From: Rhodothermia bacterium
GTDB lineage: Bacteria; Bacteroidota; Rhodothermia; Rhodothermales; UBA2364
Direction: 5' to 3'
Assembly (NCBI GenBank): GCA_017303715.1
Contig: JAFLBZ010000036.1
Location: 1-44,260 of the forward strand
DNA length: 44,260 nt
Shown: positions 15,104 to 23,810 of the stretch, piece after piece
Position numbering within the stretch: the first letter of the stretch is position 1
Layout of the letters: the number at the start of each line of letters is the position of its first letter
Position numbers and translations under genes: made by a program
The notes under the pieces: generated by a model
What the model saw: only the letters and a program-made list of their open reading frames with translations
What the model was told of the DNA's origin: nothing
The model's database searches: none

Positions 15104-15742
15104 TTAAGCCAGATCGGGTTGAGGTGTCACGCGGAGATAGGGCTTGATCGGGGTGAAGCCTTTGGGGAATTTCTGCATGGCCTCTTGGTTTGAAATTGCA
15201 GGGATAATGATGACCTCTTCGCCGTACTGCCAATCTGCTGGCGTTGCAACCTGATGATAGGCGGTGAGTTGCAAAGAATCTATCACCCTAAGTATTTCAG
15301 CGAAATTGCGTCCGGTTGAAGCGGGGTAGGTGAGGGTCAGTTTTATTTTTTTGTCGGGGCCAATTACAAAAACCGAGCGAACGGTGGCTTTTTCGGAGGC
15401 ATTGGGGTGAATCATGTCGTAGAGCGTAGCCACTTTCCGAGACGGATCAGCAATAATTGGAAAGTTTACGGTAGCGTTGTTCACTTCGTTGATGTCAGGA
15501 ACCCAACGTCTGTGCGAATCTAGGTCATCCACACTGACGGCGAGAACTTTAACATTCCGTTTCGCAAATTCATCGGAAAGTAGTGCCGTTCGGCCTAATT
15601 CAGTGGTGCAAACTGGCGTGAAGTCTGCCGGATGTGAAAACAATACCCCCCAGTTATCGGCCAAGTACTCATGGAAGTGAATGGTTCCGGCGGTGGTTTC
15701 TGCGGTAAAATCGGGTGCAAGGTCGCCTAATCGAAGAGACAT
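15104..15742 (-). CDS. 1-Cys peroxiredoxin (Prx6-type)
   Basis: The 212-residue enzyme reduces peroxides through a single peroxidatic cysteine, Cys45 in HPADFTPVCTTELG. The Prx6-type C-terminal extension is present (PADWQYGEEVIIIPAIS...FTPIKPYLRVTPQPD) and there is no second resolving Cys in the usual 2-Cys position. It is cytoplasmic with no signal peptide. The gene is divergent from a CysB-type LysR regulator across 159 bp, which makes that regulator a natural candidate controller (inference). Confidence 0.95.
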   Translation of the reverse strand: MSLRLGDLAPDFTAETTAGTIHFHEYLADNWGVLFSHPADFTPVCTTELGRTALLSDEFAKRNVKVLAVSVDDLDSHRRWVPDINEVNNATVNFPIIADPSRKVATLYDMIHPNASEKATVRSVFVIGPDKKIKLTLTYPASTGRNFAEILRVIDSLQLTAYHQVATPADWQYGEEVIIIPAISNQEAMQKFPKGFTPIKPYLRVTPQPDLA

Positions 15743-15901
15743 AGCGGTATATTTTAAGTTTTGGTACAGTGTTGATAGGTCAAGTTATCTCGCAAAGAAG
15801 TTGGTCGTTATGCCAATATGTTATGTAGTCATAGAAAAAGAAACGTAATTTAAGGGTGTCCTTTGCATTCGTAATTTCATGCGTATTGAAAATCTTTTGA
15901 G

Positions 15902-16873
15902 ATGAAACTTCAGCACTTGTCGGCACTATTGGCCATTGTGGATCACCACTTCAACTTATCGGTTACTGCGCAACATCTGTTTACCACACAGCCCGCCATT
16001 AGCAAATACGTGTCGCATTTAGAAGAAGAATTGGGTGTAGCCTTATTTTTGCGGCGTGGCAAGCGGATTTTGGGCTTGTCTAAGGAGGGTGAGCAGGTTT
16101 ATGAACACGCAAGACGGATCATGCAGGAGGTAGAAAACATCCGTACCGTCACAGATTTAGCCCATGCGCCCGATACTGGGCTTATTCGAATGGCGACCAC
16201 GCATACTCAGGCCCGTTATTACCTTCCCAGCCGTATTCTGCGATTTATTGCCCGTCATCCGCGAGTGAAGATGCAGTTGTTTCAGCATACGCCCATTCAC
16301 AATGCCAAACTTTTGGCCGAAGGGCAGGTTGATGTGGCGATATGTACCGAGGTCTTGTCTGACTATGAGGGGCTTCTGGCGATTCCGTGCTATCATTGGA
16401 ACCGGATGCTTTTGGTACCGAGAGACCACCCACTCACGCAAAAGGAAAACCTTACCTTGTCCGATATTGTGGCTTATCCAATCATTTCATACTCAATGGG
16501 ATTTACGGGTCGAGGGAAATTGGACCAGACCTTTCGTCAATCGGGGCTTCATCCCAATATTGTAATAACTGCCAGTGACGCTGATGTGATCAAAACCTAT
16601 GTACGGATGGGTTTGGGAATTGGGATTGTAGCAGAAATGGCTTACGAAATGGGTGTTGATACCGATTTTGTGGCAATTCCATTGGGACATCTATTTCCGC
16701 AAGCAACTTCTTGGGTGGCGTATCAAAAACACCGCCTTATTCCACGTTATCTGTTTGATTTTATTCGAGAACTATCACCTTTTACGCGGCTCAAATTTAG
16801 GGATGGCGAGGTAATCTATGAGCCGCAAGAAGACCGGATCCCTTCGTTTGCGATGATCCGTCAAACAAAATAA
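15902..16873 (+). CDS. LysR-type transcriptional regulator, CysB-like
   Basis: The 323-residue protein has the LysR winged helix at residues about 1-60 (LSVTAQHLFTTQPAISKYVSHLEEELGVALFLR) and an effector-binding domain that resembles CysB/Cbl: IRMATTHTQARYYLP, GQVDVAICTE, MGLGIGIVAEMAYE. CysB proteins sense sulphur precursors in proteobacteria; here no cysteine biosynthesis genes adjoin, so the ligand may differ. The immediate divergent neighbour is a 1-Cys peroxiredoxin, the likeliest local target. The length is normal for the CysB branch. Confidence 0.92.
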   Translation: MKLQHLSALLAIVDHHFNLSVTAQHLFTTQPAISKYVSHLEEELGVALFLRRGKRILGLSKEGEQVYEHARRIMQEVENIRTVTDLAHAPDTGLIRMATTHTQARYYLPSRILRFIARHPRVKMQLFQHTPIHNAKLLAEGQVDVAICTEVLSDYEGLLAIPCYHWNRMLLVPRDHPLTQKENLTLSDIVAYPIISYSMGFTGRGKLDQTFRQSGLHPNIVITASDADVIKTYVRMGLGIGIVAEMAYEMGVDTDFVAIPLGHLFPQATSWVAYQKHRLIPRYLFDFIRELSPFTRLKFRDGEVIYEPQEDRIPSFAMIRQTK

Positions 16874-17038: not shown

Positions 17039-17806
17039 ATGAACGATGAAACCCCGCAAGCCGTTTTAACCGTCCGAACTTTGGGTGGTTTTGAGCTAAG
17101 GTCTAAAGATCAAATATGGCCGCTTCAGGGTTGGAAGCGCGATAAAAGCCTTCAGTTGTTTCAATATTTGCTGACAACAAAGGGCGGATTTCGTCATCGA
17201 GAGGTTATTGTAGAAGCACTTTGGCCCGAATTGAGCGGAACCGCAGCAGAACGCGATTTTAAGGTTGCGCTTAATGGACTTCAACAGGCACTAAAACCCA
17301 TGAGTGCGGTTTCATTCGTTTTAAGAAATGGGATAAGTTATGCGCTCGACGGAAAGTTGGTTGCGGTTGACATAACCACATTTGAGGAAAAAATTGGTCT
17401 AGGTAATCGTGTTCTACCCAACAACAAAAAGGCCGCCATTGCCTTGTTTCGGGAAGCGCTTGTACATTATGGGGGTGTTTTTTTGCCAGAACGTTCTTAC
17501 GAAGATTGGGCAACAGCCATACGCGAAAGGCTCCATATGCTTGCCCTTAGTACCATGACCAAACTTGGGGAAATGGTATTGGAGGAAAACCCGACAGAGT
17601 CGCTTCATCTTGCCTTACGGGTACTGGGCTTTGAAAAAGGCTGGGAAGATGCCTACCGTTTGGCGATGCGGGCCTATCTGGCAACAGGAAATCGTCCGAT
17701 GGCGCTCAAAACATATGAGAAATGTGCCGATGTGCTGGAGGAACTGTATGATGTAGAACCCTTGCCCCAGACCACAAAACTCTATGTGGACATCAAACAA
17801 TTGTAA
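17039..17806 (+). CDS. SARP-like transcriptional regulator (winged helix plus BTAD)
   Basis: The 255-residue protein starts at the ATG at 17039 (an upstream in-frame ATG at 16970 gives an unlikely leader). Residues about 8-105 match an OmpR-type winged-helix domain: VRTLGGFELRSKDQIWPLQGWKRDKSLQLFQYLL, VIVEALWPE, ERDFKVALNGLQQAL. Residues about 110-255 are the bacterial transcriptional activator domain: HYGGVFLPERSYEDWA, TKLGEMVLEENPTESLHLALRVLGFEKGWEDAYRLAMRAYLATGNRPMALKTYEKC. The layout and length equal Streptomyces SARP activators; there is no receiver or ATPase domain. It sits 62 bp upstream of the PHA gene cluster on the same strand, with an 11-bp-period repeat between, so PHA control is a reasonable inference. 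Confidence 0.87.
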   Translation: MNDETPQAVLTVRTLGGFELRSKDQIWPLQGWKRDKSLQLFQYLLTTKGGFRHREVIVEALWPELSGTAAERDFKVALNGLQQALKPMSAVSFVLRNGISYALDGKLVAVDITTFEEKIGLGNRVLPNNKKAAIALFREALVHYGGVFLPERSYEDWATAIRERLHMLALSTMTKLGEMVLEENPTESLHLALRVLGFEKGWEDAYRLAMRAYLATGNRPMALKTYEKCADVLEELYDVEPLPQTTKLYVDIKQL

Positions 17807-17815
17807 GTACAACCC

Positions 17816-17853
17816 ATTTGTAACCGATTTGTAACCCTCCTTTTTTACCTTTG
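17816..17853 (+). promoter_or_regulatory. candidate activator operator and promoter of the PHA operon
   Basis: ATTTGTAACC occurs twice, at 17816-17825 and 17827-17836, an 11-bp period or one helical turn. Nine bases later TACCTTTG (17846-17853) matches the Bacteroidota -7 consensus TAnnTTTG. SARP activators of Actinobacteria are known to bind heptamer direct repeats 11 bp apart placed about 8 bp upstream of the -10 box, and the upstream gene encodes a SARP-like protein. The classical -33 TTTG spacing is not met, as expected for an activator-dependent promoter. The repeat is observed; the function is inferred. Confidence 0.5.
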
Positions 17854-17868
17854 CAACAGATTAAGAAC

Positions 17869-18399
17869 ATGAGCAAGCAAGACGATCTTTGGCAAGAATT
17901 GGAATCCGCACAAAGCAAGGTAGTGTCTTTTATGGTGCGCTTTACCCAACATCTGTGGAAGGATGAAAAGGGTGAGGCAAAAATCGCTTGGCGGGGGAAT
18001 GTAAAACACGTTCAAGGCGATGAGGATACGAGTTTTACCGATTTTGCAGAAGGACTTTCGTTTATGCAAGCCCAACTCCAAACCCTTACACAAGAAACCT
18101 TAAGCCGGTATCATGAGGCGGCGCAGGCCACAACAGGTCTTGAAAATGGATTAAAGTTTTGGGAAGAAGCCACAAAACGTTATACCGACCTTTGGAGGAG
18201 CAGTTGGGAACAAGGCATGGAAGGGGCACAACAGATAAAAGCACACATGGACGAAGCCGTGCGGAAGTCCATACCCGCTTGGCCAGAACTGATGAACCCT
18301 TTGGCTCTTGCCGAAGAAAATCGGGAGTTGAAAAGGGAACTTGAAGCGCTGAAGGCAAGGATTCGAGCCTTAGAAAATACTAAAAACACAGCAGAATAA
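17869..18399 (+). CDS. small PhaE/phasin-like helical protein, first gene of the PHA cluster
   Basis: The 176-residue protein (start ATG 17869, MSKQDDLWQ) is almost wholly helical, rich in Gln, Glu, Ala and Trp, with no signal or membrane segment. Repeated Trp-centred segments (LWQELE, FWEEATKRYTDLWRSSWEQGMEG) resemble the N-terminal part of PhaE proteins, and the last 35 residues are a heptad coil: LAEENRELKRELEALKARIRALE. I read it as a granule-associated or PHA-synthase-accessory protein. It is about half the size of PhaE and lacks an obvious catalytic motif. Position first after the operon promoter supports a PHA role; the exact function is not known. Confidence 0.75.
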   Translation: MSKQDDLWQELESAQSKVVSFMVRFTQHLWKDEKGEAKIAWRGNVKHVQGDEDTSFTDFAEGLSFMQAQLQTLTQETLSRYHEAAQATTGLENGLKFWEEATKRYTDLWRSSWEQGMEGAQQIKAHMDEAVRKSIPAWPELMNPLALAEENRELKRELEALKARIRALENTKNTAE

Positions 18400-18474: not shown

Positions 18475-18867
18475 ATGGCAAACGAAATCGCAAACGCCGT
18501 ACAAGAGGCCACCAAAATGTATGAAAACGCATTCAGCGAAACCAAATCACAATTTGAAACTGCTACCGCACAAGGTCAAGCCTTTATGGATAAAAATATG
18601 ACCGAGGCCAAAGAACAGTATGCAAAAGCTTTTGAAACCTTCGTCAAAAACCAAGAAGCGGCACAGGTAGCAGCAAACGAAGCCTTCGAGAAGGTTTTGA
18701 CCCTCCAAGCACAAAATATGGCATTTGCCACAGAAATGGCCGAGAAAATGCAAGCCGCATTGGTAAAGGAAACCGAAGCGACGTTTAAAATGACGGAGCT
18801 ATATCTGGCACAAATGCAAGCAAATACCGATAAGTTTACGAAGTTAGCCACAGGTTTTTTAAACTGA
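18475..18867 (+). CDS. phasin-family granule protein
   Basis: The 130-residue all-helical protein is rich in Ala, Glu, Gln, Lys and Phe, with amphipathic segments such as AFETFVKNQEAAQVAANEAFEKVLTLQAQNMAFATEMAEKM, as in Phasin_2-type proteins that coat PHA granules. It has no cysteine and no tryptophan, no signal and no membrane helix. Phasins are normally the most abundant PHA proteins; the large hairpin right after this gene (18912-18950) could separate its level from that of the enzymes downstream. A 75-bp gap upstream may hold a further promoter. Confidence 0.85.
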   Translation: MANEIANAVQEATKMYENAFSETKSQFETATAQGQAFMDKNMTEAKEQYAKAFETFVKNQEAAQVAANEAFEKVLTLQAQNMAFATEMAEKMQAALVKETEATFKMTELYLAQMQANTDKFTKLATGFLN

Positions 18868-18988: not shown

Positions 18989-20116
18989 ATGAATCAAGCA
19001 AAGATGTTTGAAGAAGCCAGCCGCCATTGGCAAAGCCTTTTTGAAACGGGAGTCGCACAATGGCAGCAACAACTCGCCCAAGGGATGAAATCATTTGGGA
19101 ACCAAGCACCTTCATGGGCTTCTGGGGTACGAATGCAAATGGAAAACGCCCAAAAAGTTTGGCTCTCAGCCATGCAAACCTTTGCCGGGCAAACAAGTGA
19201 GTTTTGGAAAAACGTAAAATCACCTGCGGACTTTGCGGCCACATTTCCGCAATTTCGCTCCGACCTGCACAAGAAGTTTACGGACGCTGTTGCGGACTCA
19301 TATAAACAATTTGGGGATTATAACCAGCTTTGGGACGAATTTTTAGGGCATTACAAATCTTTCCAAAACGTGGGAAGTGATTTTTTCGCCCCCCACAAAT
19401 CGGCAACAGAAGGCTTTTCAGCCCCAAAAAACCCAGAGGAATGGATGCAGTCCGGCCTACAATTTATGCATCAGCTTTTTGATCAGGCTGGTGGTAAAAC
19501 CTTTGATGCTCCGGCTTTGGGCATGATGCGGAACTATACACATTTGGTCAATCAGGCATTTAAAGCATTTAGGGAGGAGAAGGAAGCAGAGCGGGTTTTC
19601 CAAACCTTGGTTGCCAAAACTTGGGCATCGGTGGTGGCTGAGATGACGAAAACCGTCTGGGAACGTGGGCAAGAGGGCAAACCCATTACTTCGCTTAGGG
19701 AACTCTCGCGCGTTTGGGCGGGCGTTACCGACGAGGTCTTTATGGAGGTGTTTAAATCCGAGGCATATGTCCAGACACAACTCAACTACCTGAATGCCTC
19801 TTTCAGATACCGCAAAGCCAAACGGGCATTAACAGAAGTGGTATTGGATGCAAATGATTTGCCGACGCTGACTCAAGTGGATGATTTAATCGAACGGGTG
19901 TATTCCCTGAACAAAGCTGTGCGTGCGGAAGCGCGTAGTCGGAAATCTGCTGAAAAAGAGGTTGCCACATTACATCAAACCGTAGCGGAGCAATCGGAAG
20001 CACTTGCTAAGATTCAAGAACAGTTGGCTTTGTTGCTTGATTCGCAGAACGGGCAAACGTCAATAGCAACGACCCAAAAACGAGCAACTCGTAAAACAAA
20101 AACTGACCTTGCCTAA
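18989..20116 (+). CDS. phaE: class III PHA synthase subunit PhaE
   Basis: PhaE partners PhaC in class III polyhydroxyalkanoate synthases and is needed for activity. The 375-residue protein is mostly helical, with the typical N-terminal Trp/Gln-rich part (SRHWQSLFETGVAQWQQQL), a central PhaE core (RNYTHLVNQAFKAFREEKEA ... GVTDEVFMEVFKSEAYVQTQLNYLNASFRYRKAKRALTEVVL) and the diagnostic C-terminal segment LPTLTQVDDLIERVYSLNKAVRAE followed by a heptad coil and a basic tail. The length matches known PhaE proteins. It lies 24 bp before phaC. Confidence 0.93.
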   Translation: MNQAKMFEEASRHWQSLFETGVAQWQQQLAQGMKSFGNQAPSWASGVRMQMENAQKVWLSAMQTFAGQTSEFWKNVKSPADFAATFPQFRSDLHKKFTDAVADSYKQFGDYNQLWDEFLGHYKSFQNVGSDFFAPHKSATEGFSAPKNPEEWMQSGLQFMHQLFDQAGGKTFDAPALGMMRNYTHLVNQAFKAFREEKEAERVFQTLVAKTWASVVAEMTKTVWERGQEGKPITSLRELSRVWAGVTDEVFMEVFKSEAYVQTQLNYLNASFRYRKAKRALTEVVLDANDLPTLTQVDDLIERVYSLNKAVRAEARSRKSAEKEVATLHQTVAEQSEALAKIQEQLALLLDSQNGQTSIATTQKRATRKTKTDLA

Positions 20117-20140: not shown

Positions 20141-21238
20141 ATGATACATAAAGATATGATGGGTATTCAACTTGACCCGGCCGCCCTCATGAACGAAGTT
20201 AACGAAGTTCAACAAAAGATCCGTCAGGGAATGGAGCATTTAGGCAGTATGAAGGACGCTGAAATTCTGATTGGAACGACGCCTCATGAAACGGTTTTTC
20301 AGATGGATAAAGTGCGCTTGATTAAGTACGAGCCTACGGGTGGAGAATGCTTGGAAAGGCCCTTACTCATCAATTATGCGCTGGTTAACCGGCCAAATAT
20401 GGTGGATTTGCAGGAAGATCGTTCGCTCGTCAAGAATTTATTGAACTTAGGTATTACGGTTTACCTCATAGATTGGGGATATCCCTCGCGTGCTGATCGT
20501 TGCCTCACGTTGGAGGACTACATCAATGGTTATATAGATGCTTGTGTGGAGTTCGTTCGGGAGGCCCACAACATGGAAAAAATCAACCTCTTGGGCATTT
20601 GTCAAGGCGGAGTAATGGCAACCTGTTATACGGCTTTGCACCAAGAAAAGATCGCCAACCTTATCACTATGGTTATGCCAGTGGACTTTCACATCACGCC
20701 CGACGAAATAGGTGGGTTGCTGAATTGCTGGATGAAGGATGCAGATGTAGATCTAATGGTAGATACATTGGGCAATATGCCGGGGGATGTCATGAATTTT
20801 GGCTATCTTCTGCTTAAACCCTATGCCTTGGGTGTGCAAAAATATGTGGAAATGGTGGATATTCTGGACAAACCCAAAGCACTTACCAATTTTATGCGGA
20901 TGGAAAAGTGGATTTTTGATAGTCCAGACCAAGCGGGCGAAGCTTTCCGCTCGTTTAATAAGCAGTTCTATGTGGAAAATAAATTCATCAAAGGTGAGGT
21001 AATGATTGGAGATCAACGGATAGATTTGGGGACGATTACCCTTCCTGTGTTGAATATTTATGCAGAACAAGACCACTTAGTCCCGCCAAAGTCCACATTG
21101 GCACTTGGAAAATACATAGGTTCTAAAGACTATACCGTTCAATCGTTTCCAGTAGGACACATCGGCATGTACGTAAGTGGCAAAGTACAACAAAGTTTAC
21201 CGCCAACGATTGCAACTTGGCTTAAGGAACGAACTTGA
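20141..21238 (+). CDS. phaC: class III polyhydroxyalkanoate synthase catalytic subunit PhaC
   Basis: PhaC polymerises (R)-3-hydroxyacyl-CoA. The 365-residue length is that of class III enzymes (class I are near 600). The lipase-like box GICQGG holds nucleophile Cys154; Asp311 (YAEQDHLVPP) and His340 (VGHIGMYV) complete the triad. Family marks include LINYALVNRPNMVDL, GITVYLIDWGYPSRADR and EKWIFDSPDQAGEAFRSF. Cytosolic, granule-bound with PhaE, whose gene is immediately upstream. A 158-bp gap containing a long hairpin separates it from phaB. Confidence 0.97.
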   Translation: MIHKDMMGIQLDPAALMNEVNEVQQKIRQGMEHLGSMKDAEILIGTTPHETVFQMDKVRLIKYEPTGGECLERPLLINYALVNRPNMVDLQEDRSLVKNLLNLGITVYLIDWGYPSRADRCLTLEDYINGYIDACVEFVREAHNMEKINLLGICQGGVMATCYTALHQEKIANLITMVMPVDFHITPDEIGGLLNCWMKDADVDLMVDTLGNMPGDVMNFGYLLLKPYALGVQKYVEMVDILDKPKALTNFMRMEKWIFDSPDQAGEAFRSFNKQFYVENKFIKGEVMIGDQRIDLGTITLPVLNIYAEQDHLVPPKSTLALGKYIGSKDYTVQSFPVGHIGMYVSGKVQQSLPPTIATWLKERT

Positions 21239-21273: not shown

Positions 21274-21321
21274 AAGCACCTTGTTTCTCCGATATGGCAA
21301 CCTCGGCGAAACATGGTGCTT
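21274..21321 (+). promoter_or_regulatory. long RNA hairpin between phaC and phaB
   Basis: AAGCACCTTGTTTC (21274-21287) pairs with GAAACATGGTGCTT (21308-21321) at 13 of 14 positions, and an inner CCGA/TCGG stem (21289-21292, 21303-21306) extends it around a 10-nt loop. It is followed by CTTGTCG rather than a T run. A second small perfect hairpin, CAATTTT/AAAATTG at 21337-21357, lies between it and the phaB ribosome binding site. Probably an mRNA segment boundary within the operon. Confidence 0.7.
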
Positions 21322-21396
21322 CTTGTCGTTCATACCCAATTTTGCGGTGTAAAATTGACTTTTCAACATAACAGAATACATCCGGGAGGAAACATC

Positions 21397-22107
21397 ATGT
21401 TAGGACTCGAAGGCAAAGTCATTTTTGTAAGTGGCGGAAATCGCGGCATTGGTGCTGCTATTGTTAATCTACTGGAAGACTTAGGCGCGAAGGTGGCTTA
21501 TAACTACCGAAGCGGGCTAGGGGAAAAGGGAACAGGGTATGTGGCAAATGTCACTGATCCCGAAGAGATGACGCAATTAATGGCCCAGATCGAAGAAGAC
21601 TTGGGACCAATCTATGGCGTGGTTTGCAATGCTGGAATTACACGCGATGCACTGGCATCCAAATTATCCAACGACGATTGGAATGCTGTAGTAGAAACAA
21701 ACCTTACAGGGGTTTGGAACACCATTCAGCCAAATTTGGCTCGGATGTATGAACGCAAGCAAGGGGCTTTGGTACTGGTGAGTTCCATTGTGGGTGAACG
21801 CGGAAATATCGGCCAGGTAAATTATGCCGCCACAAAAGGAGCCGTTATTGCAGTGTCAAAAACATTGGCTCAAGAAGGCGCACGTTTTAATGTCCGCTCA
21901 AATGTGGTGGCGCCGGGCTTTGTCGAAACCGATATGACCAAACCCATACCAGAGCCGGTCAAAGAAAAAATATATGCACAAATCCCAATGCGGCGCTTTG
22001 GTAAACCGGAAGAAATTGCATGGGCGGTGGCATATATGCTCTCTCCAGTTGCTTCAAGTTTTGTCACGGGACATGTCCTTTCTGTAAATGGCGGTCATTA
22101 CATGTAA
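21397..22107 (+). CDS. phaB: acetoacetyl-CoA reductase (SDR family)
   Basis: PhaB reduces acetoacetyl-CoA to (R)-3-hydroxybutyryl-CoA. The start at 21397 is fixed by a strong GGGAGGA at 21384-21390. The 236-residue short-chain dehydrogenase has the nucleotide motif SGGNRGIG (12-19), NAG (78-80), and catalytic Ser130, Tyr143 and Lys147 (NYAATK). The stretch after the second strand is unusually short (NYRSGLGEKGTGYVANVTD), so the usual third helix is missing relative to FabG/PhaB of about 246 residues. It could equally be a FabG-type reductase; the position between phaC and phaA favours PhaB. The stop is 5 bp before the next ATG. Confidence 0.9.
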   Translation: MLGLEGKVIFVSGGNRGIGAAIVNLLEDLGAKVAYNYRSGLGEKGTGYVANVTDPEEMTQLMAQIEEDLGPIYGVVCNAGITRDALASKLSNDDWNAVVETNLTGVWNTIQPNLARMYERKQGALVLVSSIVGERGNIGQVNYAATKGAVIAVSKTLAQEGARFNVRSNVVAPGFVETDMTKPIPEPVKEKIYAQIPMRRFGKPEEIAWAVAYMLSPVASSFVTGHVLSVNGGHYM

Positions 22108-22111
22108 TCCT

Positions 22112-22573
22112 ATGGAAACAACCCTTTTCGAGCTTTGGCTTAAACAAATTCAACGTGCCTCCGAAGACCCCGAATGGTGGCAATGGATGTTGGGCACAAA
22201 TCATGAGGCCGGCACTTCAGCAGAAGAATGGCTTAACCGATGGAAATCCATTTTGACTGGAACGGGAAATCCGGCTGAAATACAAAAAGTCCAAGACGAC
22301 TGGTTCCGTATGATGGGAGTTGTTCCAAGGCAAAGGTATTTGGATTTGCTGGAAAAATGCGATGCCCTACAGCGCCAGCTCGAAACCACCGAGCATGCAT
22401 TAAAGGCCGCTACAGCTGCCATGTCTCCGGAGTCTGAAAAGGGGTCAAAAGCGCAAATGGTGGACGCTTGGCAGCAAATGGCGACTCAAACGTTGGCTTT
22501 GCAACAAGCTTGGCTAAAGGGGATTGATGGCTTAACCGTGCCGTCAGATCAACAAAAATCCGACTTATCTTAA
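22112..22573 (+). CDS. second small PhaE/phasin-like protein in the PHA cluster
   Basis: The 153-residue protein (ATG at 22112, 4 bp after the phaB stop) is Trp- and Gln-rich and helical. It starts ETTLFELWLKQIQ, contains WWQWMLG, and at residues about 72-95 has MGVVPRQRYLDLLEKCDALQRQLE, a proline-started heptad coil resembling the C-terminal signature of PhaE and the PhaR-type synthase subunit. A Gln/Ala-rich helix follows. No signal or membrane segment. Tight coupling with phaB and phaA points to a granule or synthase accessory role. It is not obviously homologous end to end with the first small protein at 17869-18399. Confidence 0.75.
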   Translation: METTLFELWLKQIQRASEDPEWWQWMLGTNHEAGTSAEEWLNRWKSILTGTGNPAEIQKVQDDWFRMMGVVPRQRYLDLLEKCDALQRQLETTEHALKAATAAMSPESEKGSKAQMVDAWQQMATQTLALQQAWLKGIDGLTVPSDQQKSDLS

Positions 22574-22616: not shown

Positions 22617-23810
22617 ATGCGTGATGTGTACATTGTTTCTGCTGTCCGTACTCCCATTGGGCGTTTTGGTGGCTCTCTAATGGAGTATGGTGCTGTAGAT
22701 CTCGCCGCCATTGTGATGAAGGCGGCCTTAGAAAAGGCAGGTGTCCAACCGGAGAACTTGGATCTCTACATCATGGGGAATGTGCTGCGGGCTGGCTTAG
22801 GACAGTTGGTTCCCCGACAAGCAGCCCTAAAAGCCGGAATCCCAGATCATGTAGATGGTTTTGCGGTGGATATGGTGTGCTCTTCAGGTATGATGTCGCT
22901 GATGAATGCCGCAACCAGCATTCGTGCGGGTGAGGCCGATCTGGTATTGGCCGGCGGGACCGAGTCTATGAGCAATGCCGGATATGTGCTTTCAGGACGG
23001 GCACGTTGGGGATATAAGTACCTGACGCCAGCCAATGCGGAACCACTCCAAGATATTATGCACCGCGATGGCCTACAGGATGTGTTCACGGGCGATGCAA
23101 TGGGCAATCTGACAGAACAATTGGCGGCAGAAAATGGGGTGAGTCGAGCAGACGTGGATGAGGTCGCTGCGATGTCTAACCAACGTGCGGCAGCGGCAAC
23201 TGCGTCAGGCGCTTTCCAAAACGAAATTGTACCAGTTTCCTACAAGGTAAAAAGAGAAACAAAAACCCTTTCTGCCGATGAAGGCTTCCGTGCTGATACC
23301 ACATTGGCATCTTTAGGCGGTTTACGTCCCGCTTTTATGAGAGAAGGTATCCTTACGGCTGGGAACAGTAGCCAAATTAGTGATGGTGCTGCGGCCTTAC
23401 TTTTGGCCTCTAAAGAAGCTGTTGATAAATATGGACTTACACCTTTGGCTAAAGTGACAGGAAGTTCCATTGCGGCACATGCACCCTATGCCTTTGCATC
23501 TGCCCCCGTTCCGGCCGTAGAAAAGCTTTTGGCGCGCACTGGTAAAACGATTGCAAATATGGATTTGGTCGAGAACAACGAAGCCTTTGCGGTGAATAGC
23601 GTCTTGTTCAATCGCGTTTTGGGTATTCCCTACGACAAGTTGAATGTAAATGGAGGCGCTATTGCATTGGGCCACCCGATTGGTTGTTCGGGCGCGCGGA
23701 TCATCGTAACATTGGTTCATTCCTTGCATCGCTTAGACAAGCAAAATGGTCTTGCGTCCATCTGTCATGGTACAGGTGGCGGTACAGCGGTTTCCATCGA
23801 GCGGGTTTAG
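22617..23810 (+). CDS. phaA: acetyl-CoA C-acetyltransferase (beta-ketothiolase)
   Basis: PhaA condenses two acetyl-CoA to acetoacetyl-CoA, the first PHA step. A clear AAGGAG at 22605-22610 precedes the ATG. The 397-residue thiolase has nucleophile Cys88 in DMVCSSGMMSL, catalytic His353 in GGAIALGHPIGCSGARI and the C-terminal Cys383 motif SICHGTGGGTA. NNEAFAVNS (321-329) is the family's NEAFA motif. Length is standard. It is the last gene of the PHA cluster and is followed by a series of hairpins ending in a bidirectional terminator. Confidence 0.96.
   Translation: MRDVYIVSAVRTPIGRFGGSLMEYGAVDLAAIVMKAALEKAGVQPENLDLYIMGNVLRAGLGQLVPRQAALKAGIPDHVDGFAVDMVCSSGMMSLMNAATSIRAGEADLVLAGGTESMSNAGYVLSGRARWGYKYLTPANAEPLQDIMHRDGLQDVFTGDAMGNLTEQLAAENGVSRADVDEVAAMSNQRAAAATASGAFQNEIVPVSYKVKRETKTLSADEGFRADTTLASLGGLRPAFMREGILTAGNSSQISDGAAALLLASKEAVDKYGLTPLAKVTGSSIAAHAPYAFASAPVPAVEKLLARTGKTIANMDLVENNEAFAVNSVLFNRVLGIPYDKLNVNGGAIALGHPIGCSGARIIVTLVHSLHRLDKQNGLASICHGTGGGTAVSIERV

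Follow-up and report, generated by a model that had tools for sequence, protein, structure and literature searches.

SARPs of Streptomyces are the described regulators closest to the one reported here. AfsR and the small SARPs ActII-ORF4, RedD and DnrI have an OmpR-type winged helix followed by a BTAD domain; they act at 11-bp repeats in the -35 region near the -10 element, and the regulator gene is a neighbour of the cluster that it controls (PMC10936776, PMC10972967). SARP activation depends on contacts with region 4 of sigma and with the polymerase core. The AfsR complex contains two adjacent SARP molecules bound to an 11-bp repeat; this repeat overlaps the -35 element, the pair of molecules carries sigma region 4, and roughly 8 bp lie between the 3' repeat and the -10 element (PMC10936776). 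EmbR of Mycobacterium tuberculosis has the same two-domain fold and an added FHA domain (PMC10936776). A 2024 review describes SARPs as exclusive to actinobacteria. PHA genes are controlled by PhaR and PhbR (AraC family), partly from neighbouring genes, and the words SARP, AfsR and BTAD do not occur in a 2021 review of PHA regulation (PMC9049629).

We analyzed 44,260 nucleotides of DNA from a bacterium of the Rhodothermales; this whole stretch is called the window. It contains a small gene with the SARP architecture, an 11-bp direct repeat close to a probable -10 element, and a PHA operon, in that order. The order of the protein domains, the placement of the repeat and the position of the regulator gene beside its putative target are as in the Streptomyces systems. 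In contrast, the half-site is CGTT(T/C)ATCG in Streptomyces and TTGTAAC here, and the setting is actinobacteria and antibiotic clusters there but Rhodothermales or Anaerolineae and PHA storage genes here. Unlike EmbR, the window regulator has no FHA domain, and it belongs to a protein family other than those of PhaR and PhbR. The parts are of known kinds, and their arrangement, a SARP-like circuit at PHA storage genes that has a half-site of its own, is new to the literature that we searched. That literature (subscription journals were outside its coverage) held nothing relevant on regulators of the SARP or BTAD kind, whether from Chloroflexota or connected with PHA.

A direct repeat and a probable -10 element precede a PHA operon

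The features of the locus are as follows.

17039 to 17806, + strand: small SARP-like regulator of 255 amino acids, OmpR-type winged helix then BTAD (Pfam, profile alignment and fold search)
17252 to 17272, + strand: recognition-helix signature RDFKVAL, residues 72-78, common to regulators with a TGTAAC site
17817 to 17824, + strand: upstream half-site TTTGTAAC, kept in the genus and in Anaerolineae
17828 to 17835, + strand: downstream half-site TTTGTAAC, 11 bp past the first, kept in the genus and in Anaerolineae
17846 to 17851, + strand: probable -10 element TACCTT (TAnnnT), ten bases past the downstream half-site, a distance kept in two phyla
17869 to 18399, + strand: g1, first gene of the operon, candidate unnamed family, 37% identical to the homologue on Anaerolineae contig L027, without a Pfam or NCBIfam family
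18475 to 18867, + strand: phasin-like protein (name inferred), no Pfam or NCBIfam match, weakly similar to the Anaerolineae gene in the same place
18989 to 20116, + strand: phaE, class III PHA synthase subunit (PF09712, 95 bits)
20141 to 21238, + strand: phaC, class III PHA synthase (TIGR01836, 490 bits, cut-off 365)
21313 to 22107, + strand: phaB, acetoacetyl-CoA reductase (best NCBIfam match NF042966 PhaB, 359 bits, under the cut-off of 436)
22088 to 22573, + strand: small PhaE-like protein, with a homologue in the same place in Anaerolineae loci, no Pfam family
22617 to 23810, + strand: phaA, acetyl-CoA acetyltransferase (best NCBIfam match NF042967 PhaA, 634 bits, under the cut-off of 740; TIGR01930 above cut-off)

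The initial annotation had described an exact 11-bp repeat directly before the PHA operon, and we confirmed its coordinates (17816-17836, with the ATG of g1 at 17869). The 10-mer given there, ATTTGTAACC, occupies 17816-17825 and 17827-17836, also with a period of 11. The open reading frame of the regulator begins with an ATG at 17039 and has its stop at 17806, and 33 bases separate the second TTTGTAAC from g1. The sequence TACCTTTG (17846-17853) starts with the TACCTT box, 9 bases from the end of the 10-mer and 10 from the downstream TTTGTAAC. We searched for the pattern TTTGTAACNNATTTGTAAC. With up to three mismatches it occurred once in the window (0.23 expected from shuffles), and with up to two mismatches that was its single occurrence in the whole 4.35-Mb genome.

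The box had been taken for a Bacteroidota -7 element. TACCTTTG does fit that element literally, but TAnnTTTG was not enriched in 444 kb of the genome, and the counterparts in the two congeners, TACCTTCG and TACTTTCG, have TTCG instead of TTTG. In this sample (L176-L195 and the window, about one tenth of the genome), TAnnTTTG was found upstream of genes 14 times on the forward strand and 9 times on the reverse strand, and its count in 196 upstream regions was middling among 30 permutations of its letters. TTTG was absent at the usual -33 distance; two TTTG are present, 14 and 25 bases before the box. In view of this missing enrichment, we prefer to read TACCTT as a TAnnnT box, probably a -10 element. 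TAnnnT is also the portion of the box that is common with Chloroflexota. The lack of enrichment in the 444 kb suggests that this genus may not use the Bacteroidota-type promoter.

The genes from g1 through phaA are in the operon order listed. The coding start of phaB may be at 21397, and the small gene that overlaps phaB resembles, by eye, the C-terminal part of PhaE. The protein from g1 has a conserved stretch, SFxxRFTQxLWxDxxGxxxxxWRGxxxHVQGxxxxxFTDFAxxxSFMQ, that is without a Pfam or NCBIfam family, and g1 is a candidate for an unnamed family linked to the SARP-like regulator. Upstream of the regulator gene (15104-16873) a peroxiredoxin-like gene and a gene for a LysR-type regulator form a divergent pair that recalls ahpC-oxyR. 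Both congeners also have the end of this LysR gene.

The regulator has the architecture of AfsR but not its base-contacting residues

The claim that the gene upstream of the repeat (17039-17806) has the SARP architecture was borne out. The BTAD family PF03704 matched with 66.3 bits (cut-off 22.1) over profile positions 1-145 of 146. Trans_reg_C was not matched by the window protein alone in Pfam, and one orthologue had a weak match. No domains beyond the winged helix and BTAD were found in the regulator. A family profile was needed for a match in the PDB, because a search with the single sequence gave chance matches only. The profile of 15 orthologues aligned end to end, over both domains, with AfsR (8hvr, E 3.9e-6), and it resembled PhoB weakly. 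EmbR and AfsR were on top in a fold search. We did not use the structure model (built from three sequences, mean pLDDT 71.7) or the output of a second aligner as strong evidence, because the winged helix of the model was poor and the aligner matched the BTAD part to TPR folds only.

The residues with which AfsR touches DNA are mostly different here. T88, R94 and K95 of AfsR are DNA contacts kept among Streptomyces SARPs, and R92 is a base contact of AfsR. In the window regulator, V76 and G80 take the place of the base contacts T88 and R92, and Q82 and Q83 that of R94 and K95. W62, which corresponds to AfsR W74, is the sole match among the contact residues compared. Since the base-touching residues T88 and R92 are replaced, a different half-site would be expected, and the contact scheme of AfsR is not transferable to this protein. 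Since the Streptomyces contact residues are absent, we call the protein SARP-like and not a Streptomyces SARP.

The site and gene order are conserved within the genus

A search of relatives for the repeat and the gene order had been proposed as a check. Both are kept in the other two sequenced species of the genus. Their sites are TTTGTAACCCATTTGTAAC and TTTGTAACCCATCTGTAAC, each followed after 10 bases by TACCTT or TACTTT, and the regulators are only 64-65% identical over the alignment. The leader as far as the start codon is likewise conserved, and therefore the comparison within the genus is, alone, moderate evidence. Among 114 genomes of the order, a close orthologue of the regulator was found in these three only, and an orthologue of the class III PhaC likewise. 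A distant PhaC (39%) is present in one fourth genome and remote BTAD proteins in seven.

At low mismatch the site is unique in each of the three genomes. We found no sign that the regulon of the genus is wider, since sites two mismatches off were no more frequent than in a reversed control. In all three species a conserved block, TGTAAAAYAKTTGTGACACTRTGACAATACGTTG, two mismatches away from the site, follows a gene for an MFS-like transporter (L213, L216 and L200, near position 1501). This block could be a second target or the site of another regulator.

The same arrangement is present in Anaerolineae

A search with PhaC found a contig from Anaerolineae (Chloroflexota), L027, that has a BTAD gene 43% identical to the window regulator, upstream of a g1 homologue. 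Between these genes is CTGTAAC TGGG CTGTAAC TTGTCTTTGT TATAAT (promoter, CTGTAACTGGGCTGTAACTTGTCTTTGTTATAAT). The period of 11 and the ten-base gap are the same as in the window, and the -10 box is of the sigma70 type. Extending the search to the whole class yielded about twelve short orthologues, 48-67% identical to that of L027. Most of the Anaerolineae orthologues that we fetched precede g1, and several of the contigs have phaE, phaC, phaB and phaA as well; the other contigs end before the phaE-phaA region. Across the two phyla, the regulators at loci with the same half-sites and spacing are 41-48% identical.

We assembled 14 regions upstream of g1, 3 from Rhodothermales and 11 from Anaerolineae. 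Two loci in which the regulator is before g1 but the site is after g1 (L165 and L166) were excluded from this count. All 14 regions had a pair of TGTAAC at a period of 11 with at most two mismatches. In dinucleotide shuffles of these regions, such a pair was present in a mean of 0.15 loci and at most 2. Among other periods, 13 was found in 7 regions and the rest in fewer. TAnnnT was exactly 10 bases past the downstream half-site in 12 of the 14 regions and past a third half-site in 2. In a profile of 27 sites, which were chosen from scans so that the profile is a description and not a test, the informative positions are mainly those of the two half-sites and of TAnnnT. An extended -10 G (TGnTAnnnT) is present in 21 of the 27 sites; the three Rhodothermales sites are without it.

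The site goes with the regulator and its recognition helix

We compared loci that have the regulator (16 loci, 0.23 Mb) to PHA loci without the regulator alongside (78 loci, 1.1 Mb, from cyanobacteria, proteobacteria, Chloroflexales and others). There were 16 matches to the site with at most one mismatch in the former and 1 in the latter. Period 11 was no commoner than 9, 10, 12 or 13 in the 78 loci. In the 16 regulator loci, TAnnnT was at +10 in 15 matches, and in none for any other period. At one locus (L157) the regulator is 1.3 kb from g1 with another gene between them, and the site stays at g1.

Presence of the site also went with the recognition helix. Of 30 regulators with RDFKVA, 22 had the site in the 450 bases that follow the gene. 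In four of the eight others it was elsewhere nearby (L157, L165, L166 and L148, overlapping the stop codon in L148). Two Anaerolineae orthologues, L159 and L160, had no site in the 450 bases downstream. In contrast, the site was found with 1 of 25 regulators that have other helices, and that one reads RDFRVAL. The association (p = 8e-8, a value inflated by the shared descent of related regulators) held for short and very long regulators.

The very long Anaerolineae regulators (L139-L155, about 1100 amino acids) have the SARP domain at the C-terminal end. They are like the large SARPs AfsR and PimR (SARP-LAL) in joining a SARP domain with other domains, but that domain is N-terminal in AfsR. 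These long relatives often have the same TGTAAC site as the short regulators. The site was directly downstream in 10 of the 33 relatives examined (0.04 in shuffles). The genes past the site, named by eye from sequence and not by profile, look like short relatives of g1, SDR reductases, acyl-CoA synthetases, CoA transferases and a ketoacyl synthase-like protein.

Origin of the putative circuit

In a tree of the regulators, those of the genus were sister to 13 Anaerolineae regulators (100/97), inside a Chloroflexota set. Close members of the regulator family were found in this genus only among 394 sampled Bacteroidota genomes, and the family was commonest among the Chloroflexota sampled; sampling was mainly of these two phyla, with others hardly covered. 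The PhaC tree did not resolve the origin. From the sequence comparisons, lateral transfer from Chloroflexota into the genus, with regulator, operator and PHA genes together, is likely, though not proven. A broader proposal is that in Anaerolineae the PHA and acyl-CoA operons are under the control of a large SARP-like family outside Actinobacteria, which has the RDFKVA helix and reads a TTGTAAC direct repeat, and that a regulator-operator-operon unit moved into Bacteroidota with its half-sites and spacings kept and its -10 rewritten for the polymerase of the host. We give this proposal an even chance.

The initial annotation had pointed to an unusual circuit outside Actinobacteria. The comparisons agree with this for Rhodothermales, but the putative circuit is not peculiar to Bacteroidota and belongs to a family commonest in the Chloroflexota sampled. 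It is common to Anaerolineae and one genus of Rhodothermales.

Proposed mechanism and alternatives

A SARP-like activator very probably acts on the 11-bp repeat by the promoter box of the PHA operon, in the manner of AfsR. This is the most likely mode of action because the repeat and the -10 box have the same positions here. Two regulator molecules would sit next to each other on the same DNA face, each on one TTTGTAAC (17817-17835). By analogy with the AfsR structure, the bound pair would occupy the place of the -35 element and, through contacts with sigma and polymerase, would hold RNA polymerase on TACCTT (17846-17851). Transcription would begin a few bases past the box and continue through g1, the phasin-like gene and phaE-phaC-phaB-phaA. 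By the same analogy we infer activation, not repression. SARP-type control of the operon, initially proposed from this locus, gains from the conservation in the genus and the same geometry in Anaerolineae, and the predicted regulatory link from the regulator to the PHA operon is strongly supported.

It is conceivable that the repeat is instead the box of another OmpR-type protein, for example a PhoB-like response regulator that senses phosphate limitation. Pho boxes too are direct repeats with an 11-bp period at the -35 position, PHA synthesis often rises under nutrient limitation, and the winged helix of the regulator is itself weakly PhoB-like; geometry alone cannot tell the two apart. However, one would expect further copies of a Pho box beside genes for phosphate uptake or use, and the strong site is single in each of the three genomes. 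It is also missing from PHA loci without the BTAD regulator, and it follows the recognition helix of that regulator, in which Pfam finds no receiver domain. We consider a Pho box quite improbable and rejected it on the grounds of the single strong site per genome and its absence from PHA loci without the regulator. The fixed spacing bears on a different alternative, that the protein, once on the repeat, acts as a repressor of the operon, perhaps a PhaR-like autonomous granule sensor, or has both effects. The direction of control is not readable from sequence, and well-known PHA regulators include repressors. Yet a site in the -35 place with exact spacing to the -10 is the arrangement of a SARP activator, and for repression the phase relative to the -10 box would not have to be fixed. 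Repression is very unlikely.

A further alternative is that the repeat was duplicated by chance and persists in the genus only because the region between the genes is short and of recent origin. The leader down to the start codon is conserved within the genus as well, so the genus alone would not decide the matter. But the half-sites and their spacing recur in another phylum, where the regulators are 41-48% identical, far beyond what was found in shuffles or for all other periods. Chance duplication is extremely unlikely; for practical purposes it is refuted by the statistics of the 14 regions together with the comparison of regulator loci to PHA loci.

Our results bear on a group of regulators that has been described as confined to actinobacteria and antibiotic clusters. 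A family that has this operator geometry in two further phyla and is tied to a storage polymer would imply a greater age or mobility of the mechanism than has been thought. Its natural regulator-operator pairs would be a ready set from which to read the recognition code of SARPs, and PHA production would gain a point of control that is as yet untried.
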